Source: an uncultured Flavobacteriales bacterium (GTDB lineage: Bacteria; Bacteroidota; Bacteroidia; Flavobacteriales_D; Sanyastnellaceae). From it: a stretch of DNA of 33,583 nucleotides. Made by a program: the position numbers and the translations under genes. Location: NCBI GenBank assembly GCA_905479395.1, contig CAJQMI010000040.1, forward strand, positions 1-33,583. The letters are read 5' to 3'. Of this stretch, positions 2,388 to 32,245 are shown piece by piece; the first letter of the stretch is position 1, and each line of letters opens with the position of its first letter. The notes beneath the pieces are model-generated. The model ran no database searches. It was given only the letters and a program-made list of their open reading frames with translations, and was not told the DNA's origin.

Positions 2388-2395
2388 TAACTTTG
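2388..2395 (+). promoter_or_regulatory. Bacteroidota -7 box (TAACTTTG), leaderless spacing
   Basis: TAACTTTG is a perfect match to the Bacteroidota -7 consensus TAnnTTTG. It ends 4 bases before the ATG at 2400, which would put the transcription start at or next to the start codon. No TTG is found 19-21 bases upstream. The remaining gap back to 2184 shows no other clear signal or gene. Confidence 0.5.
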
Positions 2396-2399
2396 ACGC

Positions 2400-3884
2400 A
2401 TGAATAACCAGCGGCAAATTATAATCGGCATTGCGGCAATGCTCACACTGGTCCTCATCGACAATGGGCCATGCAAGGCTCAAGACGATGGCGTTTGGAT
2501 TGACTTATTGCGCTTTCAGAATGAGAATGCCCCTTATTTCGAAATCCAACTGGAATTCCAGAGCAATGCACTTACCGCTCAAAAAGCCGATTCCGGATGG
2601 CAAACAACTGCACAATTTGAAGCAACCCTGGAAAGTGCCGATGGAATCGTCAATTACGCGAAAACGGTGATTGCTGGTCCCGTTGAGCTCGACTCTTTAA
2701 CCGCCATGACGGGCACCCAACTGCACATTGAGCGAATGGAAGCTCCTCCGGGAAATTATCGCATCAACATGATGTTGAACGATGCCGTCGGCACTTTTTC
2801 AAGTGCATCTTCCTTGGATTTCAAAGTTTCTCAGACCGACGCTCCTAGCTGGTCAGATGCGTTTGTCGTTGAAGCTTATGCGCCCACGGACGTGAACAGT
2901 CCGAGCCCATTGTCACGCTCTGGATTTGATATGCTCCCTGTTGTCGGTGGTCGACTGGGCACAGAAGCCGATCGCCTTCAATTTTACGCTGAGCTTTACA
3001 ACGTTCAAGATGTCGTAGACTCCTTGTTTCTTGTGAGTTGCTGGATCGAAGACGGTCGCGGACAAATCACATCTGGATCCCAACGTTATTTTCGAAAAGT
3101 CGCACAAAAGGTGGTGCCACTATTCACTTCAATTCCCATGTCAGACGTCACCTTGAAGCCTCAATCAAAACTGATCATCCAAGCTGCAACGAAGGAAAAT
3201 CAAATCATCGCTCAGACTGAGCTTCCCCTCGACGTGCAGCAGTCGTCTCCTCAGGAACTTGCTTGGAACGGTCCTGATGGAAATTACCTGCGCGACTTCA
3301 CAGACTCATTGGCTTTGATTCAGCATGTGCGAGACCATCGCCCTCGCGCAGATGCCTCTCAACGTCATACCATTGAGGGGTTTTTGGATGTGGCCACTGT
3401 AGAGCAGATGCAGGCATTTTTATTGTCTTTCTGGGAAGAACAGGCTCCGCAGAATCCTGAAATGGGTTGGCGCAATTACACAACAGCCATTGCATATGCC
3501 GACTCCTCATACGGCGCATGTAGAAAAGGACATGGAGCAGAGACAGAAATGGGTTCCATTTACCTTCGCTACGGACCTCCAAACACCGTTGTGAAACGCC
3601 ACAACGAAACGGACTATTACCCTTATGAAATATGGCATTACCACAGGGCTGGAGCCTTCACCAACAAACGATTCCTATTCTTTTCTCCGCATATGGTGGC
3701 CGAATGCTTTGTGCTGCTCCATTCCGATATGCTTGGAGAAATACAAAATACCGATTGGCTGCATCAATTGCGTAACCGTGAGAACCGTTTGCGCGTAACA
3801 GATAGTCAGTTGAATCGGTTGAATCCTCGGAGAGATACATTCTCTGGAGAGGAACCTGAAGATCTTTTCTTCAACCCAAGATGA
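2400..3884 (+). CDS. GWxTD domain-containing exported protein
   Basis: A 494-residue protein with an N-terminal signal sequence (MNNQRQIIIGIAAMLTLVLI). The C-terminal third carries the GWxTD-domain pattern: a Trp-rich FWEEQAPQNPEMGWRNY stretch, then GSIYLRYGPPNTVVKR, YYPYEIWHYHRAG, RFLFFSP and LLHSDMLGEIQNTDWLHQL. This domain is widespread in Bacteroidota as a secreted or periplasmic module of unknown function; the N-terminal two thirds look beta-rich. The reading frame overlaps the next gene by four bases (ATGA), so the glycosyltransferase is translationally coupled and in the same operon. The start is chosen because it gives a proper signal peptide and lies 4 bases after a -7 box. The function is not known and I do not assign one. 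Confidence 0.88.
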   Translation: MNNQRQIIIGIAAMLTLVLIDNGPCKAQDDGVWIDLLRFQNENAPYFEIQLEFQSNALTAQKADSGWQTTAQFEATLESADGIVNYAKTVIAGPVELDSLTAMTGTQLHIERMEAPPGNYRINMMLNDAVGTFSSASSLDFKVSQTDAPSWSDAFVVEAYAPTDVNSPSPLSRSGFDMLPVVGGRLGTEADRLQFYAELYNVQDVVDSLFLVSCWIEDGRGQITSGSQRYFRKVAQKVVPLFTSIPMSDVTLKPQSKLIIQAATKENQIIAQTELPLDVQQSSPQELAWNGPDGNYLRDFTDSLALIQHVRDHRPRADASQRHTIEGFLDVATVEQMQAFLLSFWEEQAPQNPEMGWRNYTTAIAYADSSYGACRKGHGAETEMGSIYLRYGPPNTVVKRHNETDYYPYEIWHYHRAGAFTNKRFLFFSPHMVAECFVLLHSDMLGEIQNTDWLHQLRNRENRLRVTDSQLNRLNPRRDTFSGEEPEDLFFNPR

Positions 3885-4954
3885 ATTTAGAAACGCAGAA
3901 ACATAGCACAGCAGTGGCCATCCTCAATTGGAATGGCCTAAGGCATCTACAGGACTATTTGCCATCCGTGGTTGAGCATTCCGAATCGGTTGCGCAAATC
4001 ATCGTGATCGATAATGGAAGCACCGATGACTCTGTTGCTTGGTGCCGCAAAACATTTCCTGAAGTTGAAATCATCGAGTTGCCAGAAAACTTAGGATTCG
4101 CCGGTGGCTACAACGCAGGTCTCAGACAAGTCAGAGCAGAAAACTATGTTTTACTCAACAGCGATGTCCGCGTGACTCCTGATTGGATCTCGCCCGTGCT
4201 CACAATGATGGATCAAGAAGGTTTTTCCGCATGTCAGCCAATCATTCGAAACGACTCTGACCCGGAACTCTTGGAATACGCTGGTGCAGCTGGAGGATTC
4301 ATTGACCGAGATGGGTTCACCTTTTGTGCTGGTCGCATTTTTGAAGTTTTCGAAACAGACACTGGCCAATATGAAGCCAGCAGGGAGGTCTTTTGGGCGT
4401 CTGGAGCGGCCTTGTTTATCCGCGCGGAAGCGTTTCATTCCGTAAACGGATTGGACGATGACTTCTTCGCGCACATGGAGGAAATTGATTTGTGCTGGAG
4501 GCTTAAAAATCGAGGGCATCGAATCGGTGTTTGTGGATCATCAGTCGTTTTTCATCTCGGTGGTGGAACGCTTCAAAAAGTAAGTCCCTTCAAATCCTAC
4601 CTGAATTTCAGGAATAACCTCTTCCTTTTGGTCAAGAATCATCATCGTGCTGCTCTTTACCCTTTGGTACTGCGCCGTATGATTTTGGACGGTGTGGCAG
4701 CATTGAAGTTCTTGTCTGAAGGCTCAACGCCTCTGTTTGGAGCTGTGTTAAAAGCACACCGAGACTTCAGAAAGGAGTTGCCTGCAATGCGAAAAAAGCG
4801 CCAAAAAGAGATCAAAGTTTGCAGGGACTTAAAAGCTGCTGGCGTTGACGGAATCCATAATTACACAGGGTGGTACCATCGCAGCATTTTGGTCGACTAC
4901 TTCATTCTGAAACGTCATACGTTTCACGCACTGAAGCACGGTAAAATCGAGTGA
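3881..4954 (+). CDS. Glycosyltransferase family 2 (rhamnosyltransferase/WbbL-like)
   Basis: A 357-residue inverting GT-A glycosyltransferase. Visible motifs are the N-terminal nucleotide-binding strand AILNWNG (about residue 13), VIDNGSTDDS (42-51), the LPENLGFAGGYNAGL loop typical of the rhamnosyltransferase-like branch, LLNSDVRVTPDW with the DxD-equivalent SDV (94-96), and the catalytic-base region HMEEIDLCWRLKNRGHRI. The family transfers sugars from nucleotide donors to surface polysaccharide or glycoprotein acceptors at the cytoplasmic face; donor and acceptor cannot be read from the sequence. The start overlaps the GWxTD stop by ATGA. A 97-base gap follows before comEC, with no convincing terminator, so the three genes may be one transcript. 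The basic C-terminal tail has no obvious membrane span. Confidence 0.93.
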   Translation: MNLETQKHSTAVAILNWNGLRHLQDYLPSVVEHSESVAQIIVIDNGSTDDSVAWCRKTFPEVEIIELPENLGFAGGYNAGLRQVRAENYVLLNSDVRVTPDWISPVLTMMDQEGFSACQPIIRNDSDPELLEYAGAAGGFIDRDGFTFCAGRIFEVFETDTGQYEASREVFWASGAALFIRAEAFHSVNGLDDDFFAHMEEIDLCWRLKNRGHRIGVCGSSVVFHLGGGTLQKVSPFKSYLNFRNNLFLLVKNHHRAALYPLVLRRMILDGVAALKFLSEGSTPLFGAVLKAHRDFRKELPAMRKKRQKEIKVCRDLKAAGVDGIHNYTGWYHRSILVDYFILKRHTFHALKHGKIE

Positions 4955-5051
4955 AGCTGTCCAGCTTTCAAAGTCTGTCATAGAAATTACACAGGCGCAC
5001 ACAAACTTTCCAGATTGCAGAGGCTACTGAGTCAGACTTTTGGCTGTGTGC

Positions 5052-6911
5052 ATGGTCTGGAACATTCCGAAATTACAGGCTCCCCTATTCATTCCTGTCC
5101 TTTTCTTGGGGTTGGGCACGAAGGCTGTCGAACAGCCGCAGCTGCTCTTGGTTTGTATTTTGGCCCTTGGAGTTCTTTTCGCTGCAAAGCAAAGAGGCTT
5201 TGCCTATGCCCTGCTCCTTGTTACTGGCCTAGGCGTTGCGCGCCAGAGTCTGAACCTTCGGCATCATCCTGCAACAATCTCCTCAAACTGCTCAGTTTGG
5301 AAATGCTCCACTGCGCAAGCAGAACCTTCTTTCGGTTACTTATGCTTGTGCTCATCCCGTTCGCATCCCATGGGGACACTGATCGAGTGGAACGAAGCAT
5401 ATCCACCTGTTATGAATCAGTTCTTCCTCGCAACTCTCAAGCCCTTTCGATCCAATGCTCAATTCAATCGAGCACAATGGAAACAGACCCAAGGAATTTC
5501 TGGGGAGCTGTGCCCTATTCCTTTAGCAAATTCGAGTGAACTAAAACTCATAGGACGCATCCAATCTGAACACGTTGCAAGCAGCATCGCACGACGCATT
5601 AAGCATCTAATCAAACGTGCAATTGACCAATCATTTTCAGGTGAGGCACGTGGGTTTTTATGCGCAATTGCCACAGGGGATAAATCAAATCTTGATTTCA
5701 AAGTCAAAGCATATTTTTCGAATGCTGGCCTTGCACATTTACTCGCAGTTAGTGGATACCATGTCGGACTCGTATGCTTTGTTCCCTTGATGCTATTGCA
5801 TACCCGACGTCGGTTTGTCCGAATGTTTTCCGTGGCCCTTATTATCACAATGTCCTGGATGTTTGTGGCTGTATGTGAATGGCCCACATCGGGGATAAGA
5901 GCAGCAACCATGATTTGTTTATACAGCCTGAGCTGCCTCTTCGGTCGTCGTATCAATTCCATTCAAATTTGGGCCGTCACTTTGGCGCTCATGTTATTAT
6001 ACAATCCAAATATTGCCATGAGCCTGGGCGCACAACTCAGTTTTTTGGCTGTACTGGCCATCCTGTTGTTCTTGCGTATCTCTTCTGCATTTCATCGTTT
6101 TCAAAAAATAGCAATCGCTATGGGCATCCCCGTGGCCGCGCAATTTGGAACAGCTGGCATCGCCATTCCAACCTTTCATTCATTTCCCTACTTTTTCTGG
6201 CCATTTAACCTCTTGGCACAACTCGCTATGACTGGAATTGGCGTCTTGTTTGCCACTTGGGGAATATGCTTCGGAATCGGGATTAGAATTCTCAAACCAC
6301 TTCAAAATTTCTGCAATCGCGCGCTATCAAACGTTATCAAACAGTTATTTGATGGACTTCATTTGATACAGCAAAATTTTACATTGGCAATCAACCTTGA
6401 GCAAACTCCCGCTTTTATCTGGGGAATTTTTAGCGCGATCTATTTCATAAGCGCGCTCTACAGCATTCAATTCAAAAGCAAAACAGGCGTGATTTTCATC
6501 CGATTGGTAACATCTGTGCTCATCCTCTTGCCTTGGGGAGTTTTGGTCCCCATCCAAAGGAACTCTGTGGTTATAAAGCAATACAGAAAACCGGTGCTTC
6601 AGCTGCACGAACGGAATGCCCTGCACGTATTCACATTTGACAGCCGTGACTCTGCGGCAGTGCGACGGCATTTAATTTTAAAGGGTACGACCAATCCTGA
6701 AATAACGTACCTAACACCCGGTCAAAACTGGTTCAACTCACAAGGCGACTTCATGCTTTGGATGTCCAAGTTTGAAGCCAAAGGTTGCATAGCAAAACGC
6801 CCATGCAACTATCGTTGCACAGGCGAGGAAAAAGGAACTCTAAACTTGGGAGACCGCAATATTATGTGGCGGTCCTGGGGCCAAAATCAGTTTTTAATTG
6901 AGGTGGAGTAA
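5052..6911 (+). CDS. comEC: ComEC/Rec2-type DNA-uptake channel protein
   Basis: A 619-residue polytopic inner-membrane protein. The diagnostic competence domain is clear: GEARGFLCAIATGDKS, then FSNAGLAHLLAVSGYHVGLV, then SGIRAATMICLYSLSCLFGRR and GAQLSFLAVLAILL. N-terminal membrane spans and a small soluble segment (DUF4131-like) precede it. After the last spans only about 110 soluble residues remain, with no metallo-beta-lactamase HxHxDH motif, a short form common in Bacteroidota. ComEC carries single-stranded DNA across the inner membrane in transformation. The ATG at 5052 is preferred to an in-frame TTG at 5040. GACTTTTG (5035-5042), one mismatch from the -7 box, lies 9 bases before the ATG. 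The 3' end overlaps the convergent small gene by 18 bases. Whether this organism is competent is unknown. Confidence 0.92.
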   Translation: MVWNIPKLQAPLFIPVLFLGLGTKAVEQPQLLLVCILALGVLFAAKQRGFAYALLLVTGLGVARQSLNLRHHPATISSNCSVWKCSTAQAEPSFGYLCLCSSRSHPMGTLIEWNEAYPPVMNQFFLATLKPFRSNAQFNRAQWKQTQGISGELCPIPLANSSELKLIGRIQSEHVASSIARRIKHLIKRAIDQSFSGEARGFLCAIATGDKSNLDFKVKAYFSNAGLAHLLAVSGYHVGLVCFVPLMLLHTRRRFVRMFSVALIITMSWMFVAVCEWPTSGIRAATMICLYSLSCLFGRRINSIQIWAVTLALMLLYNPNIAMSLGAQLSFLAVLAILLFLRISSAFHRFQKIAIAMGIPVAAQFGTAGIAIPTFHSFPYFFWPFNLLAQLAMTGIGVLFATWGICFGIGIRILKPLQNFCNRALSNVIKQLFDGLHLIQQNFTLAINLEQTPAFIWGIFSAIYFISALYSIQFKSKTGVIFIRLVTSVLILLPWGVLVPIQRNSVVIKQYRKPVLQLHERNALHVFTFDSRDSAAVRRHLILKGTTNPEITYLTPGQNWFNSQGDFMLWMSKFEAKGCIAKRPCNYRCTGEEKGTLNLGDRNIMWRSWGQNQFLIEVE

Positions 6912-7148
6912 GTTCGTCACTACTTGATCAACGTATCCTTCCCACTCTGGCAAATCAGCTATGGGGAGAATCGCATTTACGCGGTTGTTCCTCCGGCTAT
7001 AAATCGCTTCGACATAAAACCCATTCAGATCAAAGATGCAGAGGATGTAACGGTTTTCGACGATGCGCTGCGCAAGGCAGATTCCATGGTCCCACATATA
7101 GTTTGTCTTCTCATCAAGTGGAAGTCGGTTAAAAGCTGTCAAGTCCAT
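6894..7148 (-). CDS. Small conserved-looking hypothetical protein (84 aa)
   Basis: An 84-residue soluble, acidic-to-neutral protein starting MDLTAFNRLPLDEKTNYMWD and containing a strand-rich core (RYILCIFDLNGFYVEAIYSRRN). It resembles small uncharacterised Bacteroidota proteins that begin with an FNxLPLDEK segment, but I cannot name a function. Support for being real: it fills the gap between comEC and the HMG-CoA lyase gene, its composition is protein-like, and its end overlaps comEC tail to tail by 18 bases, as other convergent pairs here do. There is no signal peptide or membrane span. The start at 7148 is the only ATG giving the full frame. No -7 box was seen upstream. Confidence 0.7.
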   Translation of the reverse strand: MDLTAFNRLPLDEKTNYMWDHGICLAQRIVENRYILCIFDLNGFYVEAIYSRRNNRVNAILPIADLPEWEGYVDQVVTNLLHLN

Positions 7149-7222
7149 GATCGTTGGGTATAAGTCGTTTGGCTTGAATACGTCTGTACCTGCGAAAAGG
7201 TTACAAAGCCCCTCCTCTTCTT

Positions 7223-7230
7223 TATCTTTC
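7223..7230 (+). promoter_or_regulatory. Probable -7 box (TATCTTTC), leaderless spacing
   Basis: TATCTTTC matches TAnnTTTG at all but the last base and ends exactly 4 bases before the HMG-CoA lyase ATG at 7235. The 86-base divergent region 7149-7234 holds nothing else recognisable. No TTG is present at the -33 position (GTTA occurs there). Confidence 0.4.
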
Positions 7231-7234
7231 GGCC

Positions 7235-8104
7235 ATGAACGCTGTTCAACTCATTGAATGTCCTCGGGACGCAATCCAAGGATGGCCGCACGCCATAAGC
7301 ACAAGTGATAAAATAGCTTATTACAAAGCGCTACTCGGCGTAGGATTTGACACCATCGACATTGGCAGCTTCGTCTCGCACAAAGCCGTGCCGCAAATGG
7401 CTGACACGCGTGAAATATTGAAACGGCTGCACGATGAGGGAATGCTTGAAGTCAGTTCTCGCATCCTCACGATTGTTGCCAATGAACGCGGTGCAATCGA
7501 CGCAACGCAAGTTCCCGGAGTCACCGACATGGGATTTCCACTCAGCCTTTCTGAAACGTTTCAGCAACGAAACACGGGTGCAAGCATCAAAGAAGCTTGG
7601 CAACGTCTCGAACGCGTCAAACACCATTGTGAGAGACATGACAAACAACTGGTTGTTTACTTGAGCATGGGCTTCGGAAATCCTTACGGAGACGAATGGA
7701 ATCCAAATGTACTTTCGGACTTTATCGGACAGCTTGATGATCAAATTCAGCCTCAGATAATCGCACTAAGTGATACGGTCGGCACAGCAAGTCCAGAAAT
7801 GATTTCAGCAGCTTTTGACATGGCAATACCATCGTTCAAAAGCATTGAATTTGGAGCACACCTTCATGCACATCCCCAGCAAGTTGAATCAAAATTGGCA
7901 GCTGCTTTCGAAAGCGGCTGCAGAAGATTTGATGGAGCAATCAGAGGGATCGGTGGCTGCCCAATGGCCCAAAATGAATTGGTTGGGAATATTCCAACCG
8001 AACATATGATGGCCTATTTCGAAAACCTCGATGCATGGAAACTTCAGAACAAGAGAGCATGGCAGCATGCAATGAGCATCGCTGTTGATCTCTTTCAATC
8101 TTAA
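7235..8104 (+). CDS. Hydroxymethylglutaryl-CoA lyase
   Basis: A 289-residue TIM-barrel enzyme of the HMGL-like family. HMG-CoA lyase cleaves HMG-CoA to acetyl-CoA and acetoacetate, the last step of leucine breakdown. The catalytic set is visible: R11-D12 in ECPRDAIQGW, the metal-binding HLH at 209-211 (GAHLHAHP) and the signature cysteine C242 in GIGGCPMAQNELVGN. Length fits the cytosolic bacterial form. The N-terminal ECPRDAIQGW replaces the textbook EVGPRDGLQN and is, as far as I recall, usual for Bacteroidota members. The gene is monocistronic, convergent with the methyltransferase-ZIP operon and separated from it by a hairpin. With 3-hydroxyacyl-CoA dehydrogenase and methylmalonyl-CoA mutase elsewhere in the window it suggests branched-chain amino acid or acyl-CoA catabolism. 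Confidence 0.93.
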   Translation: MNAVQLIECPRDAIQGWPHAISTSDKIAYYKALLGVGFDTIDIGSFVSHKAVPQMADTREILKRLHDEGMLEVSSRILTIVANERGAIDATQVPGVTDMGFPLSLSETFQQRNTGASIKEAWQRLERVKHHCERHDKQLVVYLSMGFGNPYGDEWNPNVLSDFIGQLDDQIQPQIIALSDTVGTASPEMISAAFDMAIPSFKSIEFGAHLHAHPQQVESKLAAAFESGCRRFDGAIRGIGGCPMAQNELVGNIPTEHMMAYFENLDAWKLQNKRAWQHAMSIAVDLFQS

Positions 8105-8114
8105 AATTTTGGGC

Positions 8115-8229: not shown

Positions 8230-8305
8230 AGCATAGGTTAAGTAACCTCGTATACGAATCTTGTCGCTTAAATGTTTCGTTTCATCGAAGCTAAAAAGGC
8301 TGTCG

Positions 8306-9849: not shown

Positions 9850-9890
9850 TACTATCTCCGTATAGGTCAGCTAAGGTCGTATCTATCGCG

Positions 9891-9898
9891 TTACTTTG
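9891..9898 (+). promoter_or_regulatory. Probable -7 box (TTACTTTG) of siaB, leaderless spacing
   Basis: TTACTTTG matches TAnnTTTG in seven of eight positions and ends exactly 4 bases before the siaB ATG at 9903. No TTG lies at -33. It is the only promoter-like signal in the 9850-9902 divergent gap. Confidence 0.4.
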
Positions 9899-9902
9899 AT
9901 AC

Positions 9903-10466
9903 ATGTCCTTGGCAAACCCTTCTGAAATCGGCGCACGTCCCTTGCGGACGGATTTTGATTTGGAAGCAACGATACTAGATAACATGGAGTTTCGGTGGCG
10001 CGGAGCAGTCGAAGAATCATCCACTTCGTTCATTTTGGATTGGGTTGAGCAGCGCCTAAATGCCATCGAGTCAAGTGCTCTGCAAAAGAAACGCATCTTA
10101 CGTGTTGCCATCGAATTGCTCCAAAACCTGCATCATCATGCAGGCTATCCAAAGTCCAATGTTTCTTTTGAAGTCGTTTCAGACCAATCAACCCATTGGT
10201 GGATGCGCACAGAAAATCCTGTTTCTATGGAACAGGAAACCTACCTCAAGGAAACTCTGCGTAAATTGAATGGATCAGATCTGAATCAGTTACGGGAAAT
10301 CCAGCGGAACAAAATAGCGCATCAAAAGCGCAGCGAACATGGTGGCGCTGGTGTTGGCTTGAATGAGCTCATTCGGAAAAGTCAAGGGCAAGTTTTTGTT
10401 GAATTCCTCAATATGAACAATGATCAGCGGCACGTTGTTTTTTTAACCAAACTAGAACTGAAATGA
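9903..10466 (+). CDS. SiaB family protein kinase (GHKL fold)
   Basis: A 187-residue protein of the SiaB/DUF6272 type. Its GHKL ATP-binding fold shows an N-box-like helix (ELLQNLHHHA, with E71, N75 and H77-H79) and a glycine loop (GGAGVGLNELIRK, from about residue 147). In Pseudomonas, SiaB phosphorylates SiaC on a threonine, SiaA removes the phosphate, and the switch controls a diguanylate cyclase and aggregation. Here the next gene is the SiaC homologue and overlaps by four bases (ATGA), strong support for a working pair. No SiaA phosphatase is in the window. The start at 9903 is supported by the -7 box 4 bases upstream. What the pair controls in this organism is unknown. Confidence 0.85.
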   Translation: MSLANPSEIGARPLRTDFDLEATILDNMEFRWRGAVEESSTSFILDWVEQRLNAIESSALQKKRILRVAIELLQNLHHHAGYPKSNVSFEVVSDQSTHWWMRTENPVSMEQETYLKETLRKLNGSDLNQLREIQRNKIAHQKRSEHGGAGVGLNELIRKSQGQVFVEFLNMNNDQRHVVFLTKLELK

Positions 10467-15322: not shown

Positions 15323-15330
15323 CAAAGATG
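15323..15330 (-). promoter_or_regulatory. Probable -7 box (CATCTTTG), near-leaderless spacing
   Basis: On the minus strand CATCTTTG (seven of eight matches to TAnnTTTG) ends 3 bases before the ATG at 15319 and 6 before the one at 15316. No TTG is at -33. The remaining 15331-15413 gap shows no gene. Confidence 0.35.
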
Positions 15331-15477: not shown

Positions 15478-16347
15478 TCAGCCCAAGTAGCTTTTGAGAA
15501 TTCTACTTCTGCTCGTATGCTTCAGTCGTCGAATGGCTTTCTCCTTGATTTGCCGAACACGTTCCCGCGTCAAGTCAAATCGCTCGCCAATTTCCTCGAG
15601 GGTCATTGGGTGCTCTCCGTTCAAACCAAAATAAAGTCGAATAACATCGCCTTCCCTTGGAGTCAAGGTGCGCAAAGAACGCTCAATCTCCTTCCGAAGA
15701 GATTCAGTCATCAAATCCGTGTCTGGTGCAGGAGTATCCCCTGTTCGCATCACGTCATACATGTTGCTCGAAGACTCATCACCATCCTTCAAAGGTGCGT
15801 CCATGGATACGTGACGTCCAGCATTTTTCATGCTTTGTTTCACTTCATCCAAGGTCATGTCCAATGTTTCAGCCAATTCAGCAGCAGTAGGCGGTCGTTC
15901 GAATTCTTGCTCCAAGCGGGCAAATGCCTTGTTGATTTTATTGATCGAACCAATTTTATTCAACGGCAAACGCACAATTCGACTCTGTTCTGCCAGTGCT
16001 TGCAAGATGCTTTGACGGATCCACCAAACAGCATATGAGATGAACTTAAATCCACGAGTCTCATCGAAACGCTGCGCTGCTTTGATCAAACCGAGGTTGC
16101 CCTCATTGATCAAGTCAGGCAATGACAAACCCTGATTTTGATATTGCTTCGAAACTGAAACCACAAAACGGAGATTGGCTTTGGTAAGTTTTTCCAAGGC
16201 TACTTGGTCACCCTTCTTGATCCTTCGTGCCAACTCTACTTCCTCTTCGGCAGTAATTAAGTCGACCCGTCCAATTTCTTGAAGGTATTTGTCCAACGAT
16301 GCTGTCTCGCGGTTAGTTACCTGCTTTGTAATTTTAAGCTGCCTCAT
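15478..16347 (-). CDS. rpoD: Primary sigma factor RpoD/SigA
   Basis: A 289-residue housekeeping sigma-70 factor in the short form typical of Bacteroidota, lacking region 1.1 and the large non-conserved insert. Region 1.2 is [19 protein letters not shown]; region 2 contains [19 protein letters not shown], then [18 protein letters not shown] and the -10-recognition helix [16 protein letters not shown]; region 3 includes [10 protein letters not shown]; region 4.2 is the helix-turn-helix [19 protein letters not shown]. It recruits RNA polymerase to the TTG/TAnnTTTG promoters noted in this window. It lies 61 bases after pnp on the same strand, without a terminator or recognised promoter between them, and ends at a strong terminator. 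The order rpsO-pnp-rpoD is, as I recall, common in Flavobacteriia. Confidence 0.97.
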
Positions 16348-24305: not shown

Positions 24306-24329
24306 CTTTCGAGCGCAATTTAGGCAACC

Positions 24330-24337
24330 TAACTTTG
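24330..24337 (+). promoter_or_regulatory. -7 box (TAACTTTG) of the helicase gene, leaderless spacing
   Basis: TAACTTTG is a perfect TAnnTTTG and ends exactly 4 bases before the ATG at 24342, the same arrangement and the same octamer as upstream of 2400. TTT, not TTG, is found 20 bases upstream (24307-24309). The divergent gap to the acyltransferase start is only 36 bases. Confidence 0.55.
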
Positions 24338-24341: not shown

Positions 24342-25628
24342 ATGACATTTTCTGAGCTCAAGCTTACCCGACAATTCCTAAATGCGATTAAAGACGCCGG
24401 CTACACTGAGCCATCTCCAATTCAGATCAAGGCGATCCCGCCCCTCCGTTCCGGGCAAGATGTCATTGGGATTGCACAAACCGGGACCGGAAAAACAGCT
24501 GCTTTTCTTTTGCCGCTGCTCCAAAACCTCAAATATGCCCAACACAATGACCCTCGTGCGCTGATTTTGGCACCAACGAAAGAACTGGCACTTCAAATTC
24601 ATCAAGAGGCTCTTAAATTTGCGGCATACACGGATCTTCGAATTTTGGCGCTTTACGGTGGCATTGGTCCAAAAACACAAATTGAGAAGCTGAAAACGGG
24701 ATGCGACTTGGTCATCTGCACTCCTGGTCGCTTCATTGAACTTTACAGCCACGGACACATTCAGACCAAACACATCAAGCAATTGGTTCTGGATGAAGCA
24801 GATCGAATGATGGACATGGGATTCATGCCTCAACTTCGACAAATCCAAGAAATCATCCCAAACAAGCGGCAGAACATGCTCTTCTCGGCGACATTTCCCG
24901 CTCGTGTTGAAAGGCTTGCTGATGAATTTCTCCTCTGGCCTACGCGCATAGAAGTAACGCCTCAATCCACTCCTGTTGAGACGGTTCGGCAGATGAAGCT
25001 GGAACTTCCAAACCTGCGAACGAAGATTGCTTTCATCGAATGGTGGATAACACACCACCTCAACGACAAGCGATTGTTGATTTTTACACGCAAAAAAGAA
25101 GAAGCTGAAAATCTTGCTCGCTACCTGCAGCGATCATTTGATTTTGAAATTCGTACAATTCATAGCAACAAAGGGCAGAATTCTAGAATCAATGCGATGG
25201 ATGACTTTCGCTCTGGATTGGTCAAAGTGTTGGTGTCGACGGATGTTGCAAGTCGAGGAATTGATGTGCCCGAAACAGAAATGGTGATCAACGCTTCCGT
25301 ACCACGTGATCCTCATGAGTACGTTCACCGCATTGGACGAACTGGTCGAGCTTTTCGCGATGGCACTGCACTTACGCTGAACGACCCCGCTGAGCGCTAT
25401 GCCCTGGAACGAATTGAAACGCTCGTTGGTGGGCCACTCGAAGAAATCACAGCACCTGAGTCACTCGAAGAGTTTGAGACCCCGAAATACGAGCGCCAAA
25501 TTCAAGCGCGTGAAATTGATGGTGAACTGCGAAAACGAGACCCCAATTACAAGGGCGCATTTCACGAGAAAAAAAAGAAGGGCAGCAAAGGCAAGTCGAG
25601 TCGGTCAAAGCGGAAGCCGCGAAAGTAA
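24342..25628 (+). CDS. DEAD-box ATP-dependent RNA helicase (RhlE-like)
   Basis: A 428-residue superfamily 2 helicase with both RecA domains complete. The Q motif is EPSPIQIKAIPPL, Walker A AQTGTGKT (45-52), Ia PTKELALQ, Ib TPGR, II DEAD (151-154), III SAT (182-184), IV LLIFTRKK, V STDVASRGIDVP and VI HRIGRTGR (329-336). The C-terminal tail of about 60 residues is very basic (KKKKGSKGKSSRSKRKPRK) and probably binds RNA non-specifically. The likely role is RNA duplex unwinding in ribosome assembly or mRNA decay, often cold-related in this family. The start is supported by the -7 box 4 bases upstream. The stop overlaps the convergent zinc-ribbon gene by 24 bases. Confidence 0.94.
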   Translation: MTFSELKLTRQFLNAIKDAGYTEPSPIQIKAIPPLRSGQDVIGIAQTGTGKTAAFLLPLLQNLKYAQHNDPRALILAPTKELALQIHQEALKFAAYTDLRILALYGGIGPKTQIEKLKTGCDLVICTPGRFIELYSHGHIQTKHIKQLVLDEADRMMDMGFMPQLRQIQEIIPNKRQNMLFSATFPARVERLADEFLLWPTRIEVTPQSTPVETVRQMKLELPNLRTKIAFIEWWITHHLNDKRLLIFTRKKEEAENLARYLQRSFDFEIRTIHSNKGQNSRINAMDDFRSGLVKVLVSTDVASRGIDVPETEMVINASVPRDPHEYVHRIGRTGRAFRDGTALTLNDPAERYALERIETLVGGPLEEITAPESLEEFETPKYERQIQAREIDGELRKRDPNYKGAFHEKKKKGSKGKSSRSKRKPRK

Positions 25629-26003: not shown

Positions 26004-26004
26004 A

Positions 26005-26112: not shown

Positions 26113-26943
26113 CTATTTCAATTGGGGCATCTGCGCGACTAACTGAACAAAGAGTTTCGTAAGAAGAGGCTCAGCCAATTGCGCCATGGAAATGACTTCA
26201 TTCAAATCAAATGGTTCCAATGCTTCAGGATTGCACTCATCCGTCAAAACGCTCACTGCAGCGCAAGGCATTCCCATGTGCACCGCCGCAATTACCTCAG
26301 GCACGGTTGACATCCCCACAGCATCTGCTCCAATCGTTTTTAAGTAACGGTACTCCGCCTTTGTCTCCAATTGGGGACCTGCCACGCTGCAGTATACTCC
26401 TTCAGAAAGGGCAATTCCGCAGTCGGAAGCTATTGCCTTTAGAAGGTTTCTCAGAGCCAAGTCGTAAGGCTCGCTCATATCTGGAAAACGATCCCCAAGG
26501 GAAGGGAAGTTGGCTCCACGAAGCGGAGTATCAGGCAACAAGTTGATGTGATCTTCAATCAACATCAATCCGCCTTTCTTAAAAGCAGGATTCAAACTCC
26601 CTGAAGCATTGGAAATCAAAAGAGCTTTTGCGCCTAACATCCGGGAGATCCGAACAGGTTTCACCACTTGCTCCATGCTATATCCTTCGTAGAAGTGAAA
26701 CCGTCCTTGCCAAGCCAAAACCTTCTTGCCTTCAAGCAAGCCGTAGATCAGTTTGCCAAAATGCTGTTCTACCGTTGCCACAGGCAAGTGCGGAATTTGG
26801 CTGTAACTCCACGAGTGTTTTACATCGATCGATTCCACCAATCCACCCAAGCCTGTCCCAAGAACAATTGCTACGTCAACCTCCTCGATTCCTCGTTCTT
26901 TTAAATAATCAGAGGATTCCTGTAATTCTACCAATGCGTCCAT
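26113..26943 (-). CDS. Purine nucleoside phosphorylase (PNP, trimeric type)
   Basis: A 276-residue enzyme that phosphorolyses inosine and guanosine to base plus ribose-1-phosphate in purine salvage. Landmarks are AIVLGTGLGGLV (phosphate loop), GRFHFYEGYSMEQV, LLISNASGSLNPAFKKGGLM, IEDHINLLPDTPLRG and the base-binding SVAGPQLETKAEYRYLK with GADAVGMSTVPEVIAA (glutamate and methionine contacts). Length and motifs match the PunA/type I family rather than hexameric DeoD. The ATG at 26943 lies 13 bases after a perfect -7 box. The gene is divergent from 3-hydroxyacyl-CoA dehydrogenase across 71 bases. The zinc-ribbon gene lies 109 bases downstream. Confidence 0.94.
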   Translation of the reverse strand: MDALVELQESSDYLKERGIEEVDVAIVLGTGLGGLVESIDVKHSWSYSQIPHLPVATVEQHFGKLIYGLLEGKKVLAWQGRFHFYEGYSMEQVVKPVRISRMLGAKALLISNASGSLNPAFKKGGLMLIEDHINLLPDTPLRGANFPSLGDRFPDMSEPYDLALRNLLKAIASDCGIALSEGVYCSVAGPQLETKAEYRYLKTIGADAVGMSTVPEVIAAVHMGMPCAAVSVLTDECNPEALEPFDLNEVISMAQLAEPLLTKLFVQLVAQMPQLK

Positions 26944-26956
26944 ATCTACTTTTTCA

Positions 26957-26964
26957 CAAATCTA
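26957..26964 (-). promoter_or_regulatory. -7 box (TAGATTTG) of the purine nucleoside phosphorylase gene
   Basis: On the minus strand TAGATTTG matches TAnnTTTG perfectly and ends 13 bases before the ATG at 26943, implying a short leader of about 8-9 bases rather than none. No TTG at -33 was seen. The opposite strand of the same gap carries GACCTTTG (26981-26988), one mismatch, facing 3-hydroxyacyl-CoA dehydrogenase. Confidence 0.5.
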
Positions 26965-27014
26965 TAAAAACAAGATTGCCGACCTTTGGCACATTCGATA
27001 GAACACCAAAACGC

Positions 27015-28199
27015 ATGACCAAGACAGACAATCTTCATTCAATTGCCATCATCGGTGCAGGTTCCATGGGCTCTGGGATTGCTCAAGTTGCTGCTCAAGC
27101 TGGACACTCCGTCATTCTGTTCGACACAAATAAAGGTGCGCTTGAACGAAGTCAGAAAGATTTAGCCAAAGTTGCAGAGCGCCAGGTGATCAAAGGTCGC
27201 TGGACGCAAGAAAGCTCTGATGCACTGCAGGAACGAATCAAGCGGACAGATAATTTGAAGAAGGTTACTGGATGCGCCTTGATCATCGAAGCCATCGTAG
27301 AAAATTTTGAAGCGAAGTCGTCCTTGTTTCAAAAGCTCGAAGAAATAGTCGATTCAATGACGATTCTCGCTACGAATACATCTTCTCTTTCGGTCACCGA
27401 GTTGGCCGGCAAATTAAATCATCCAGAACGTTTCATTGGCCTTCACTTTTTCAATCCAGCTCCCTTGATGGCACTGGTAGAAATTGTCCCTGCCCTCCAG
27501 ACGGATTCATCTGTTGTTGATCAATGTCAAATTTTGATGGCCCAATGGAAGAAATCTGCTGTGATTGCAAAAGACACGCCCGGATTCATCGTCAATCGGC
27601 TCGCAAGGCCTTTTTATGGTGAAGCACTTCGCATTGCAGAAGAGGGCGTGCATAGCATTGAAACCATTGATGCGGCCATGAAAGCAATTGGATTTCGAAT
27701 GGGGCCTTTTGAATTGATGGACCTTATCGGCAATGATGTGAACTATGCTGTTACTTGCACGGTGTTCGAAGCTTTCTACTTCGACCCGCGTTACCGCCCG
27801 AGCCTCATCCAAAAACAGCACGTTGGTGCCGGTTGGCTTGGTAAAAAAACAGGAAGAGGATACTACGTATACGACGGAAAGCCTGCAGAAGAAACCGCAG
27901 ACTTAGCAACTGCCGATTCAACTCAACTTATGATCATTTCAAATCGCATTCTCTCCCTTTTGATCAATGAAGCCGCTGATGCGCTGCGTTTGAACATTGC
28001 AAGCGCAACGGATTTGGAGACAGCCATGACAAAAGGTGTGAACTACCCCAAAGGATTGCTGCAGTGGGCCAATGACTGGGGCATTGAAAAAGTCCTCGGA
28101 ACACTCGAAACCATGCAGCAAGAATATGGGGAAGAACGTTACCGCCCCTCTCCTCTCCTCAAGCTGATGGACCGAAAAAACGCTAGCTTCAATCTGTAA
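27015..28199 (+). CDS. 3-hydroxyacyl-CoA (3-hydroxybutyryl-CoA) dehydrogenase
   Basis: A 394-residue NAD-dependent dehydrogenase oxidising (S)-3-hydroxyacyl-CoA in beta-oxidation or ketone-body and aromatic-acid routes. The NAD-binding P-loop is IAIIGAGSMGSGIAQVAAQ near the N-terminus; the SSLSVTELA and RFIGLHFFNPAPLMALVEIV segments follow, with the catalytic His in the latter. The C-terminal domain has DTPGFIVNRLARPFYGEAL and MGPFELMDLIGND. A second C-terminal domain copy (LLINEAADALRLNIASATDL, then AMTKGVNYPKGLLQWAND) gives the long PaaH-like form. The reading frame extends upstream without a stop but antisense to the divergent gene; the ATG at 27015 starts exactly where family similarity begins. 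It ends 4 bases before the convergent mutase gene. Confidence 0.94.
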   Translation: MTKTDNLHSIAIIGAGSMGSGIAQVAAQAGHSVILFDTNKGALERSQKDLAKVAERQVIKGRWTQESSDALQERIKRTDNLKKVTGCALIIEAIVENFEAKSSLFQKLEEIVDSMTILATNTSSLSVTELAGKLNHPERFIGLHFFNPAPLMALVEIVPALQTDSSVVDQCQILMAQWKKSAVIAKDTPGFIVNRLARPFYGEALRIAEEGVHSIETIDAAMKAIGFRMGPFELMDLIGNDVNYAVTCTVFEAFYFDPRYRPSLIQKQHVGAGWLGKKTGRGYYVYDGKPAEETADLATADSTQLMIISNRILSLLINEAADALRLNIASATDLETAMTKGVNYPKGLLQWANDWGIEKVLGTLETMQQEYGEERYRPSPLLKLMDRKNASFNL

Positions 28200-28203
28200 T
28201 GGA

Positions 28204-30237
28204 TTAAGCGTATGCGTCCAACAAAACCTCTAAAATCTCTGAGGCTGACTTGGTGATCGGAGTTCCCGGTCCGAATACACCGACGGCTCCCGTGGCAAAC
28301 AAAGCGTCGTAATCTTTTGCGGGAATGACGCCTCCGACGACTACCAATATGTCCTCGCGGCCCAATGATCTCAAAGCGCCAACCAAAGCAGGCACAAGCG
28401 TCTTATGTCCCGCCGCAAGGGTACTTATGCCAACCACATGGACGTCATTGTCGACAGCTTGTTGAGCGACTTCCTCAGGCGTTTGAAACAAGGCGCCCAA
28501 ATCAACATCAAAGCCCAAGTCAGCAAAAGAAGAAGCCACCACCTTGGCTCCTCTATCGTGGCCATCTTGTCCCATTTTGGCAACCAATATTCTCGGTTGA
28601 CGACCCACCTGTGAAGCAAACTGCTCTGCCCTCTTTACGACTGCTTGATATGCTTCTTGGCCTTCCATTGCTCGGGAAAAGATACCACTCACCTTTTGAG
28701 TTTTCGGCTTGAAACGGCCATAAACCATTTCCAACGCCAAACTAATTTCTCCCAATGTGGCACGAGAACGAGCTGCGGTTACCGCCAATTCAAGTAGGTT
28801 AGCGTCCGTCGCCGTTCCATCCGTGAGGGCCTTCAGTGACTCCGACACCCTAGACGCATCGCGCTTCTCCTTTACTTGATTGATTCTATTGATCTGATCA
28901 GCCCTTACCACCGTCTGATCAATCTCAAGTGTATCAAGGTCTTCTTCCTCCTCAAGCGCAAATAAATTCACACCGATCAATCGATCTTGGCTTCGGTCTA
29001 TTCGCGCCTGCTTCTCAGCCGCTGCCGCCTCAATTCGCAATTTCGGGATGCCTTGCTCAATTGCAGATGACATTCCACCTGCATCTTCAATTTCTTGGAT
29101 CAGCGCATCAGCCCTTTCAACCATTTGATGCGTGAGATCTTCCATCATTCGAGAACCGTGCCACGGGTCAACTGATTTGCACAATCCTGCTTCATTCTGC
29201 AAGAAAATCTGGGTGTTCCGGGCAACTCGAGCAGAGGCTTTGGTCGGCAGCGCAATGGCCTCATCCATGGAGTTTGTGTGCAGAGATTGAGTTCCACCAA
29301 AAACTGCAGCCATTGCCTCCAAGGTCGTCCGTGCAACATTGTTCCATGGATCTTGAGCTGTCAGCGACCAACCGCTGGTCTGTGTATGGGTCCGAAGCAT
29401 CAGTGACTTTGGATTCTCAGCTCCCAACTTGAGCATACAATCTGCCCACATGAGCCGTGCAGCTCGCATTTTGGCAATTTCCTCAAAATGATTCATTCCA
29501 CTCGCCCAGAAAAAACTCAACCTCGGTGCAAAAGCATCGATATCAAGGCCAGAACGAAGGCCAGTCTTGACATACTCCAATCCATCTGCAATGGTATACG
29601 CTAGCTCGAGTTCTGGGGTAGCACCTGCCTCCTGCATGTGGTATCCAGAAATGGAAATAGAATTGAATTTAGGCATGCGTTTCGCAGTATACCGGAAGAT
29701 GTCCGCTATGATCCGCATCGAAGGCTTGGGTGGATAGATGTAGGTGTTTCGCACCATAAACTCCTTCAGGATATCATTCTGAATCGTTCCTTTGAGAGCT
29801 TTCAAATCGACACCTTGTTCTTCTGCCGCTACGATGTAAAAGGCGAGGATTGGAAGCACGGCGCCGTTCATGGTCATGCTCACAGACATTTCTCCAAGAG
29901 GAATGCCCTCGAACAAACGCTTCATATCATCAACCGTATCAATCGCCACACCTGCCATCCCAACATCACCCGAGACCCTCGGATGATCACTGTCGTATCC
30001 TCGATGCGTTGCCAAATCAAATGCAACACTCAGTCCTTTCTGACCTGCCGCCAAATTAGCGCGATAAAAAGCATTGGACGCTTCAGCCGTTGAAAACCCC
30101 GCATACTGACGGATCGTCCAAGGACGAGAGGTGTACATACTTGCATAAGGACCTCCCAAAAAAGGAGCTTGACCTGGACCGAATTGCTCGTGCTCTTGAT
30201 GATTGCTTGCAACGGAGTAATGTGCCTTCAATTTCAT
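28204..30237 (-). CDS. Methylmalonyl-CoA mutase large (catalytic) subunit
   Basis: A 677-residue adenosylcobalamin enzyme that interconverts (R)-methylmalonyl-CoA and succinyl-CoA. The N-terminal barrel has [20 protein letters not shown] and [55 protein letters not shown] and [20 protein letters not shown]. The C-terminal B12-binding domain shows the DxHxxG motif in [18 protein letters not shown], plus [18 protein letters not shown] and [12 protein letters not shown]. The start at 30237 overlaps the small-subunit stop by four bases (ATGA). Family length is usually near 700-720, so this is slightly compact. A propionyl-CoA or odd-chain/branched-chain acyl-CoA route, or propionate production in reverse, is implied. 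It converges tightly with the dehydrogenase gene. Confidence 0.96.
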
Positions 30238-31292
30238 GCTTTTGTATTGAGGTAAGAAGACCAAGCCGCTTCGAGCATGTTTGATGACCACGTATCCAGC
30301 GTCCGACTCCCACCCATTGGGTCAAACGTGCGATGAAGACCTGCCTCTTCACGCATCAAGTGTTGGATGTTTCGGGCCCAACGAAGCGGTGAATCTCTGG
30401 GGGTTTCATTCCCTTCCTTTGCCAAGTGCGGCAGCGTCTCTAATCCATCGGCTCCTCCGATGACAGCTGCATATGAAGCAGCAGTTAAGTCAATCAGGTG
30501 ATCCGATTCCAACTCGTCTCGAAAGGAAGCAATTGACGTCGTTGCATCAATCCAGATTGGTCGATCCTCAAGCTTATGTTCTTTCAACCATCTCGACCAC
30601 AAGGCACGCAATGCGCGCAATGCTGCTACTTCTTCCATCACATCAACAGATGTCCACCAACGCCATACGAATCGATTAAGCTCTTGTTCTAGCGGGGCAT
30701 TTGACGCCATGCATTTTTGCAGCCATACATCCATTGACGCGCAATATTCCACCATTGCCTGCACGAGATTGAGCGCGCGGTTTCGATGGTCTTCAATTCC
30801 AAATTTCCAAATGCGCAGATCAGGAGCATCGGCAAAAAGACGTTGGTGGTCGTTCCATTCCTTGTCTGTGATTGCCTGACCAACCTCCAAGCAACATGTT
30901 CCGCACCACCCCGAATCCAGCAGAGATAGAACATCCAGAGCGCCATTTTGAAACAAGACGGGATCAATATGAAGTTCCACCATATCGAGGTGAACTCCTT
31001 CTAGCCAATTCATATCGCAACCGCTGCTTTCCAAATCAAGTCGCAAACCAGACGCACCATGCATAAGAGCCGGAATGATTTCCCGATGCGATTTTATGCT
31101 TTGCTGGAGTTGCCATGGATTTCCTTCCTCAGGAGGGGCAATTCCACGAGCAGGCAAGGCAAATGGCGCCAAATTGGCACTCCAAATCGGTTGATCCCAA
31201 GTGGCGTTTGGCACGTTCCTCGCGTCTCCAACGGCTTCGAGCCATTGCTCAGAGTCAAAAGCTTCAAAAGACTTCCATCTACTTTCTGGCAT
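30234..31292 (-). CDS. Methylmalonyl-CoA mutase small (non-catalytic) subunit
   Basis: A 352-residue protein forming the heterodimer with the catalytic subunit encoded next. Recognisable segments are [50 protein letters not shown], and the C-terminal [23 protein letters not shown] that mirrors the barrel end of the large subunit. It has no B12-binding domain and lacks the DxHxxG motif. It is shorter than many small subunits (often 450-620 residues), so it is reduced essentially to the barrel. It overlaps the large-subunit start by ATGA, which ensures equal synthesis. It starts 4 bases after a perfect -7 box. Confidence 0.92.
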
Positions 31293-31296
31293 GGTT

Positions 31297-31304
31297 CAAA
31301 TTTA
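31297..31304 (-). promoter_or_regulatory. -7 box (TAAATTTG) of the mutase operon, leaderless spacing
   Basis: TAAATTTG on the minus strand matches TAnnTTTG perfectly and ends exactly 4 bases (AACC) before the ATG at 31292. TTC, not TTG, lies 19 bases upstream. Confidence 0.55.
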
Positions 31305-31342
31305 CAACACCTTGAACCGACTGGAATTCACGATTCATTCGC

Positions 31343-31350
31343 TAATTTTC
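31343..31350 (+). promoter_or_regulatory. Probable -7 box (TAATTTTC) of the csaA-like gene
   Basis: TAATTTTC matches TAnnTTTG in all but the last base and ends 5 bases before the ATG at 31356. The whole divergent control region between the two start codons is 63 bases, so the two promoters must be interleaved. Confidence 0.4.
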
Positions 31351-31355
31351 GAGTT

Positions 31356-31697
31356 ATGAAACCACCGATTGAATGGGATCAATTCGAATGCGTGCAAATG
31401 CAGGTTGGACGAATTGTCCAGGTCGAGCCATTTCCTGAAGCAAAGATTCCTGCATACATCATCACAGTCGATTTTGGTGAAAAGCGCGGAACCCTGAGGA
31501 CTTCTGCCCAGCTCACGGAGCGTTACAATCCCGATGACTTGATTGGAAAGCAAATTGTCGGCGTCACGAATTTCCCGAAAAAACAGATTGGTCCCATGAT
31601 GTCCGAATTTTTGATGCTAGGGGCATTGGATGCTGACAACGGAACTGCTATCATTCAGGTCCATGAAAATGTCCTCCCCGGCACTTCCATTGCATGA
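31356..31697 (+). CDS. csaA: CsaA-like tRNA-binding OB-fold protein
   Basis: A 113-residue stand-alone tRNA-binding domain of the CsaA/EMAPII type. Visible segments are DQFECVQMQVGRIVQVEPFP (the FxxVDIRVG region with MQVG), PEAKIPAYIITVDFGEKRG, LRTSAQLTERYNPDDLIGKQ and VGVTNFPKKQIGPMMSEFL, covering the whole family with normal length. CsaA was described as an export-related chaperone in Bacillus and binds tRNA-like structures; the role here is not certain. A longer frame upstream exists but is antisense to the mutase gene, and family similarity begins at residues 5-10 of the chosen start. The HAD phosphatase follows after 38 bases with its own promoter. Confidence 0.92.
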   Translation: MKPPIEWDQFECVQMQVGRIVQVEPFPEAKIPAYIITVDFGEKRGTLRTSAQLTERYNPDDLIGKQIVGVTNFPKKQIGPMMSEFLMLGALDADNGTAIIQVHENVLPGTSIA

Positions 31698-31700
31698 TGC

Positions 31701-31731
31701 TTGGGGGATTCCGTGAAGGGGCGTAGCTTCG
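31701..31731 (+). promoter_or_regulatory. Complete leaderless promoter (TTG-N20-TAGCTTCG-N4-ATG)
   Basis: TTG (31701-31703) is followed after exactly 20 bases by TAGCTTCG (31724-31731, one mismatch), which ends 4 bases before the ATG at 31736. Both Bacteroidota promoter elements are thus in register, and the start site is predicted at or next to the start codon. Confidence 0.6.
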
Positions 31732-31735
31732 CTCA

Positions 31736-32245
31736 ATGGCTTCACTGAGCAAAGCAATATTTCTAGACCGAGATGGGGTGATCAACCATGATCCTGGTGA
31801 CTACACTAAAAGCATCGAAGAATTCACTCTTTTACCTACCGCTCTGGATGCACTCAAAGAATTGCACTCCCTCGGTTACAAGTTGATTTTAATCACCAAT
31901 CAAGGAGGAATAGCCAAAGGATTGTATTCCCACGAAGATGTGAACACCATCCACGCATATTTCAGATCAAAATGTGCTGAAAAGGGAATTGAAATCACAG
32001 ATATTTTCTACAGCCCACACCATCCGGATTTCGGTGAAAGTTTGACACGTAAGCCCGGCGGTCTTATGATTGAGAAGGCCTGTGCCAAACATCGCATTGA
32101 TCCTGCTCAATCATGGATGATTGGTGACAAAGCACGCGACATCGAAGCTGGCGAGACTGCAGGTGTTTCAGGATTGCAAATACCCGTCAATGGCGATTTG
32201 ATGGATTATGTCCCTATGCTCAAACAACAACCCGTAGCCCCATAA
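31736..32245 (+). CDS. HAD-IIIA phosphatase, GmhB-like, without the zinc cysteines
   Basis: A 169-residue haloacid dehalogenase phosphatase most like D-glycero-D-manno-heptose-1,7-bisphosphate phosphatase or histidinol phosphatase. The catalytic FLDRDGVIN has nucleophile D11 and acid D13; motif II is ITNQGG (T54-N55), motif III K106 in TRKPGG, and motif IV GDKARDIEAG with D131 and D135. In GmhB the loop CPHHP...CxCRKP binds zinc. Here the equivalent positions read SPHHP (S93) and ESLTRKP (S102, T104), so all three cysteines are replaced while the histidines stay. A sugar- or other small-molecule phosphatase is likely, but the exact substrate is open. It is followed after 5 bases by the aminotransferase gene, so the two are co-transcribed. 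Confidence 0.85.
   Translation: MASLSKAIFLDRDGVINHDPGDYTKSIEEFTLLPTALDALKELHSLGYKLILITNQGGIAKGLYSHEDVNTIHAYFRSKCAEKGIEITDIFYSPHHPDFGESLTRKPGGLMIEKACAKHRIDPAQSWMIGDKARDIEAGETAGVSGLQIPVNGDLMDYVPMLKQQPVAP

Follow-up and report, generated by a model that had tools for sequence, protein, structure and literature searches.

Why should an octamer of nearly constant sequence stand almost the same few bases before the start codons of unrelated genes, on both strands of one bacterial contig? The question is raised by a 33,583-nucleotide (nt) stretch from an uncultured Flavobacteriales bacterium (contig CAJQMI010000040.1 of assembly GCA_905479395.1, C40 in the numbering used here), which was analysed at full length and is called the window below. 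A reading of the sequence alone had pointed to eight octamers resembling TAnnTTTG, the -7 promoter element of Bacteroidota, and had proposed that they form a family of leaderless promoters. All eight are present with the letters and spacers described, six of them four bases before an ATG and two at a spacer of 3 (15319, minus strand) or 5 (31356); three match TAnnTTTG exactly (2400, 24342 and 31292 minus) and five carry one mismatch, as had been cautioned for some of them. Among the 27 genes called in the window, the exact box was found at spacer 4 three times and a box with at most one mismatch six times, compared to means of 0.007 and 0.195 in 2000 first-order Markov (Markov-1) resamplings of the upstream sequences, none of which matched either count. 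We regard the observation as real and its interpretation as most likely correct, and consider it highly probable that the octamers are -7 elements read by the Bacteroidota primary sigma factor and placed for leaderless starts, the position of the start being taken by analogy with a cultured relative.

Box and start codon across the genome

The assembly comprises 2,294,200 bases (2.29 Mb) in 144 contigs and is 90% complete. TAnnTTTG-N4-ATG (TANNTTTGNNNNATG) occurs in it 76 times and the reversed pattern 10 times. Rates were estimated from an unselected sample of 796,980 bases (797 kb), consisting of contigs taken in number order and not picked for hits, plus the window, because the remaining stretches had mostly been picked from contigs with hits; these hit-chosen stretches were kept apart and are included only in pooled counts (593 first and 286 internal starts). 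Gene calls relied on a coding score and start-codon priors and ignored upstream motifs (968 genes in 1,183,524 bases). A gene was considered the first of its transcription unit if its upstream neighbour was encoded on the opposite strand or was separated from it by 25 bases or more, and d denotes the number of bases between box and start.

The genome-wide tally that had been suggested as a test of the leaderless reading gave a peak at distance 4. When every ATG of the unselected sample was counted irrespective of gene calls, the box stood at d=4 in 27 cases, compared to 3-13 cases at each other distance from 0 to 40. At called genes, the exact box lay at d=4 before 15 of 409 first starts, where mononucleotide shuffles predict 0.16 (Poisson p=8e-20 against the rate at d=41-100), and before none of the 172 internal starts. 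Exact-box counts at the 409 first starts are bimodal, with 24 at d=3-6, only 2 at d=7-11 and 37 at d=12-33. In the hit-chosen stretches, 13 of 184 first starts have the box at d=4, which gives 28 of 593 first genes in all fetched stretches. The peak is also found throughout the genus: in 22 of 22 genomes, both TANNTTTG-N4-ATG (lowest counts 63 to 19) and TANNTTCG-N4-ATG exceed their controls.

The exact d=4 sites share further features. C occupies -1 in 24 of the 28 first-gene sites and in 227 of 552 other first genes (p=4.5e-6), and the start codon is ATG in 26 and GTG in 2. The fourth box position is never G, and G has a frequency of 0.14 at the third, so that the form without G at either n, to which the Flavobacterium johnsoniae consensus TAnnTTTG has been revised (PMC6847099), is seen only in part. 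Altogether 31 genes have an exact box at d=4, 28 of which are first and 3 internal by the rule given above. The first genes include members of the SecA, Clp protease, SmpB and tRNA_Me_trans (MnmA-like) families, as well as of the DHBP synthase/GTP cyclohydrolase II, CinA, transaldolase and aspartate decarboxylase families, and a TatC gene is one of the three internal ones. Boxes with at most one mismatch at d=4-5 precede 54 of 284 divergent first starts versus 31 of 309 codirectional ones.

A second frequent -7 form, TAnnTTCG (TANNTTCG), to which the window box at 31724-31731 belongs, shows its own peak at spacer 4, at 15 of 593 first genes. The possibility that TTCG boxes are special to leaderless starts was rejected, as they are split in the same way as TTTG boxes (p=1.0 in G000 and G338, 0.32 in G305). 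Here G305 is a genome of the same genus, and G338 is the genome of helicase locus L141 (Cryomorphaceae RI_182), which probably belongs to the present organism's family, as its pattern counts are identical to those of the same-family genome G045.

Opposed pairs of exact TAnnTTTG-N4-ATG patterns were also observed back to back, at C3:35876-35929 and C131:8205-8259 in the own genome, at C30:12254-12292 in G314 and at C25:100311-100348 in G299. The two boxes are 9 bases apart in G314 and 8 bases apart in G299; thus, the two promoters of each pair must overlap.

Conservation of the box and its spacing

For the gene starting at 31292, TAnnTTTG stands at spacer 4 in every one of the 20 genus loci for which upstream sequence exists, our own included, while the flanking sequences have diverged (one genus genome, G311, has no match, and locus L108 was dropped where its contig ends). 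The encoded mutase-family proteins are only 33-66% identical to the query within the genus, and the spacing is the same in all 20 loci.

The DEAD-box helicase gene at 24342 could be followed over a wider range. By the rule of the search script, an exact box lies at spacer 4 in 27 and at spacer 5 in 15 of 79 Bacteroidota loci, including Mucilaginibacter and Pedobacter; locus L134, which lacks the start, was dropped, and four more boxes (L170, L174, L176 and L177) are visible by eye. Nine Pontibacter loci among the 79 have no box near the start. The best named matches of the window helicase are uncultured Flavobacteriales metagenome-assembled genomes, with UBA7443 at the top (89% identity); the names of the samples may hint at a marine origin.

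Comparable patterns were seen at other window genes. The G305 orthologs of the genes at 2400 and 7235 carry the exact boxes TATCTTTG (with different flanks) and TACTTTTG, respectively, each at spacer 4. The gene at 9903 is matched in 22 of 22 genomes; of 15 genus loci cut out and inspected by eye, our own among them, 13 have TTAnTTTG at spacer 4. TAnnTTT followed by C or A stands at spacer 4-5 in all five loci compared for 31356 (L090-L094), and TAnnTTYG stands at spacer 4 in 10 of the 19 genus loci with the gene at 31736 (L107 and L108 lack the gene).

Beyond the window, reciprocal matching with G305 gave 188 gene pairs. After removal of 20 pairs without upstream sequence and of 71 in which the two genes were not both first, 97 pairs remained; among these, both genes had a leaderless-type box in 12 cases, one gene only in 15 and neither in 70 (odds ratio 15, p=4.6e-6). 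One of the 12 shared cases is the helicase pair, which, at 37% identity, is probably paralogous; without it, p is 1.4e-5.

Proposed mechanism and competing explanations

In F. johnsoniae, transcription starts 4 or 5 nt after the -7 box (PMC6847099), and in F. psychrophilum this box spans positions -12 to -5 (PMC9723704). If the same distance applies here, spacer 4 would put the first transcribed base on the A of ATG, and spacer 5 would put it one base before. Under the mechanism that we propose, the octamer would be a -7 element read by the primary sigma factor of Bacteroidota, and selection would keep it four, sometimes five, bases before the start codon in a large minority of transcription units. 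RNA polymerase, starting 4-5 bases past the box, would then begin at the A of ATG or at the base preceding it, and the resulting mRNA would open with AUG, which ribosomes would have to use for initiation at the 5' terminus, as is generally understood for leaderless mRNAs. Leadered promoters of the same genome would produce leaders of approximately 8-29 nt, with few of intermediate length.

Several points weigh against this mechanism. The rule for the start position is borrowed from F. johnsoniae, and because purines are not clearly favoured five bases after the leadered boxes (A 0.30, C 0.37, G 0.18, T 0.16 at 57 sites), the present data do not fix that position independently; at the fourth base, the same 57 sites have an excess of pyrimidines (C 0.49, T 0.28). 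The case for leaderless starts consists of sequence patterns and their conservation. TTTG or TTG near -33 has no clear spacing peak before boxes at d=3-6, and in the hit-chosen stretches the d=4 box also precedes 3 of 114 starts labelled internal. Comparison between genomes adds further exceptions: 15 of the 27 informative own-G305 pairs are discordant, and the 26 own-G338 pairs (both 3, one only 6, neither 17) show no significant association (p=0.07), the peak at d=4 being weaker in G338. The helicase box stands at spacer 8 in five loci, which would give leaders of about 3-4 nt, and at the 31736 gene TAGCTTCG lies at spacer 7 from the aligned ATG in 7 of the 19 loci (L096, L099-L102, L104 and L105), which would give a leader of about 3 nt, and two further loci have neither form beside the aligned start. 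In view of these seven spacer-7 and five spacer-8 loci, the idea that leaders of 3-7 nt are strictly excluded was not upheld; the rarity of leaders of intermediate length would be a tendency, not a strict rule.

How common such promoters are was estimated by subtracting the background rate at d=61-110. At the 409 unselected first starts, the corrected excess of exact boxes is 23.0 at d=3-6, 0.7 at d=7-11, 31.3 at d=12-33 and 6.0 at d=34-60, and with at most one mismatch it is 56.0, 2.2, 66.3 and 33.5, respectively. By this motif estimate, of the promoters that can be detected up to 60 bases from a start, 38% (exact) or 35% (one mismatch) occupy the leaderless position, and leaderless-type boxes with at most one mismatch serve approximately 14% of first genes (56/409); detectable longer-leader promoters outnumber the leaderless type. 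Exact-box excesses over the same four ranges are 16.2, 2.0, 14.6 and 2.6 in G305 (182 starts) and 5.0, -0.3, 16.3 and 1.0 in G338 (185 starts), corresponding to leaderless shares of 46% (exact) and 33% (one mismatch) in the former and 23% and 28% in the latter.

These shares lead to the alternative that survives best, namely, that leaderless-type promoters are real but no commoner here than in cultured Bacteroidota, the share being inflated by motif counts that favour near-consensus promoters near starts. Published values of 4-13% come from RNA-seq (PMC7366714, PMC9723704 and PMC6847099), whereas the present share comes from motifs, and the pattern is not confined to this lineage, as 27 of 296 genomes drawn from the phylum, in 12 family labels, are enriched at the Bonferroni level. 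However, the own genome ranks second of the 296 by the ratio of pattern to control (7.6), after one with counts of 7 and 0, the genus is consistently enriched, and G338 comes out with a lower share when treated by the same pipeline. We consider inflation a possible but rather unlikely explanation. In the same draw, 10 of the 296 genomes have a ratio of at least 3 with at least 20 matches; family label f24 totals 360 to 117 over 9 genomes, and there is no excess (775 to 1059) under f17, which is the largest label with 65 genomes. Low ratios in this draw should not be taken as absence, because the reversed-pattern control is weak in AT-rich genomes.

Alternatively, the octamer might be a translation signal within a leader, either ribosome-binding or Kozak-like, with transcription starting farther upstream. 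Starts in Bacteroidota do carry upstream base preferences (PMC6847099), and internal genes of the present genome also favour A near -12. Nevertheless, internal genes, where such a signal should also occur, lack the exact d=4 box in the unselected sample, and the box also exceeds background at d=12-33, which is impossible for a translation signal at a fixed position; on both grounds this reading is disfavoured. In addition, avoidance of G at the fourth position is a trait of the sigma-factor box (PMC6847099). We judge a translation signal to be improbable.

Still less probable, in our opinion, is that the ATG after the box merely reflects a transcription-start preference and that the true start codon lies downstream, which would make these genes leadered. 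The gene caller, having only a coding score and start-codon priors, may indeed set some starts too far upstream. However, in 17 of 28 proteins from d=4 sites outside the window (25 first, 3 internal), a Pfam match begins, by our reading, no more than 10 residues from the start and near the start of the profile, which suggests that the ATGs at d=4 boxes are true starts. In the helicase homologues, the match begins at query residue 1-3 in 79 of 80 loci. Furthermore, GTG substitutes for ATG, as a start codon would, not only at the two own sites mentioned above but also in helicase loci L141, L142 (box with one mismatch) and L144, in which it stands 4 bases after the box, just before position 3001; this suggests leaderless GUG starts at these three loci. 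An origin in base composition or in the calling of open reading frames, through T-rich upstream regions and in-frame TAA or TAG at -12 (seen in 16 of 28 d=4 boxes), is practically negligible, since starts with TAC or TAT at -12 also have TTTG at -8 in 12 of 45 cases versus 11 of 512 starts without TA, on which ground a stop-codon artefact was rejected, and since the peak appears at all ATGs without gene calls, far exceeds the reversed pattern and keeps its spacing where flanks have diverged.

The sequence-only reading had further suggested that routine leaderless initiation fits a lack of Shine-Dalgarno (SD) sequences. The lack itself was confirmed, as GGAGG at -16 to -4 occurs at none of the 593 first and 1 of the 286 internal starts, compared to 4 and 4 at control positions. 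The link is weak: leaderlessness does not explain the absence of SD sequences, because leadered and operon-internal genes are also without them, and the leaderless type is in the minority. In this respect the genome resembles the non-SD, Kozak-like initiation on ribosomes with an occluded anti-SD (PMC6847099; PMC9976891), with no SD enrichment, C at -1 and A-rich -12/-11 positions at internal genes, and a bS21 protein with tyrosine at residue 54. In F. johnsoniae, SD reporters were translated more strongly when this residue was changed (PMC9976891). That system concerns leadered mRNAs, and many Flavobacteriales rpsU genes carry an SD (PMC9976891), unlike the own bS21 gene, whose start has no visible SD and an exact box at d=18. 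A search for the 16S tail found no 16S match in the assembly, while the same search matched in 9 of 14 control genomes. Bacteroidota do without SD sequences; for F. johnsoniae, leaderless translation had been discounted as the reason, most transcripts being leadered.

Compared to the sigma-ABfr promoters (-7 TAnnTTTG, -33 TTTG) mapped in F. johnsoniae (PMC6847099), F. psychrophilum (PMC9723704) and Bacteroides thetaiotaomicron (PMC7366714), the present promoters have the same octamer, no G at the fourth position and a weak or invisible -33 element, which in F. johnsoniae is likewise reported as much less evident; in those species, the start site follows the box by 4-5 nt. They differ in the frequent TAnnTTCG variant and in the frequency of boxes 4-5 nt before ATG, which is far above that of the leaderless mRNAs detected in those species, although motifs are here compared with RNA-seq: in F. 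johnsoniae, 87% of transcripts have leaders longer than 10 nt (PMC6847099), 5.5% are leaderless in F. psychrophilum (PMC9723704), and 5' untranslated regions below 10 nt make up 3.7% in B. thetaiotaomicron (PMC7366714). In the papers cited, leaderless mRNAs thus form a small class within the phylum. A likeness also exists to leaderless genes with a Pribnow-like box (PMC3160421), in which the box lies shortly before the start codon and leaderless and leadered genes occur in one genome, but box and sigma type are different here. That 2011 survey reported high leaderless percentages in Actinobacteria and Deinococcus-Thermus, and of 37 Bacteroidetes/Chlorobi genomes it detected such genes in 1 (2.4%); because it states that it sees only Pribnow-like promoters, TAnnTTTG would probably be missed. 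Possible leaderless signals in Bacteroidetes were discussed in 2017, citing reports of a high leaderless fraction (PMC5397173), leaderless mRNA in some Flavobacteriia was mentioned in a 2024 survey (PMC10783764), and the FCB group was described in the StartLink study as having AT-rich non-canonical sites (PMC9581028). Searches limited to open-licence PMC papers turned up no Bacteroidota lineage for which such a peak of the -7 box at the start codon had been reported across the genome. Leaderless mRNAs and this -7 box were thus already known, and what appears to be new is how often they are combined, the rarity of intermediate leaders and the conservation at the level of genes.

It is an evenly balanced question whether this extends to a general picture, in which the genus, and probably several other families of Bacteroidota, would have two largely separate modes of initiation on ribosomes that ignore SD sequences, with leaders of 0-2 nt or of at least 8 nt and few in between. 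The leaderless mode would then comprise about one-third of promoters, including those of secA, clpP, smpB and an mnmA-like gene, and would have been kept at the same genes over long times. Locking of promoter and start codon at many housekeeping genes would offer a natural test of how Bacteroidota ribosomes find leaderless starts, and TAnnTTYG-N4-ATG could aid the placement of gene starts in genomes of uncultured Bacteroidota.

The sites of the window and their surroundings

Coordinates of the octamers and related features in the window (spacer, bases between box and ATG)
Feature	Position	Strand	Description
-7 box TAACTTTG	2388..2395	+	spacer 4 to ATG 2400; exact; gene without Pfam match
-7-like box TATCTTTC	7223..7230	+	spacer 4 to ATG 7235; one mismatch; HMGL-like (Pfam)
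Variant box TTACTTTG	9891..9898	+	spacer 4 to ATG 9903; one mismatch; DUF6272 (Pfam), adjoins SiaC-family gene
Box-like CATCTTTG	15323..15330	-	spacer 3 to ATG 15319; one mismatch; gene without Pfam match
Sigma-70-family factor	15478..16347	-	Pfam regions 1.2, 2, 3 and 4; no region 1.1 match
-7 box TAACTTTG	24330..24337	+	spacer 4 to ATG 24342; exact; DEAD-box helicase
-7 box TAAATTTG	31297..31304	-	spacer 4 to ATG 31292; exact; MM_CoA_mutase family gene, 30234-31292
-7-like box TAATTTTC	31343..31350	+	spacer 5 to ATG 31356; one mismatch; tRNA_bind domain
TTG, possible -33 element	31701..31703	+	20 bases upstream of the 31736 box
-7-like box TAGCTTCG	31724..31731	+	spacer 4 to ATG 31736; one mismatch; HAD hydrolase

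The eight sites are unequal. Those at 2400, 24342 and 31292 are exact and, judged from the compared loci, conserved, and those at 7235, 9903 (with its variant box), 31356 and 31736 have one mismatch each and are supported by comparison with related loci, whereas 15319 is the weakest of the eight. The promoters of 31356 and 31292 stand back to back. The -33 TTG that had been noted at N20 spacing from the 31736 box is present, but it may be a chance occurrence, because neither TTTG nor TTG shows a clear spacing peak before boxes at d=3-6. The sigma-70-family factor encoded in the window is probably the primary sigma factor, and probably the one that reads these boxes; the lack of a region 1.1 match agrees with the description of sigma-ABfr (PMC6847099).

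Around the helicase gene, three further features were observed. The gene divergent from it (24284, minus strand), which was absent from the sequence-only list, has a one-mismatch box, GACATTTG, at spacer 5 to its called start. The helicase -7 box overlaps an inverted repeat (24317-24335), which reads AATTTAGGT-A-ACCTAAATT in loci L122-L127, departs from this by one change in L120 and L121 and by two in the window, and looks like an operator. Several other helicase relatives instead carry GCAAGATA, 7-10 bases upstream of the box.

Upstream of the DUF6272 gene (9870-9902; loci L243-L256), the box has the form TTAnTTTG and not TAnnTTTG, and an AAGTTCG-like block lies farther upstream in many genus loci; this box may be read by another sigma factor.

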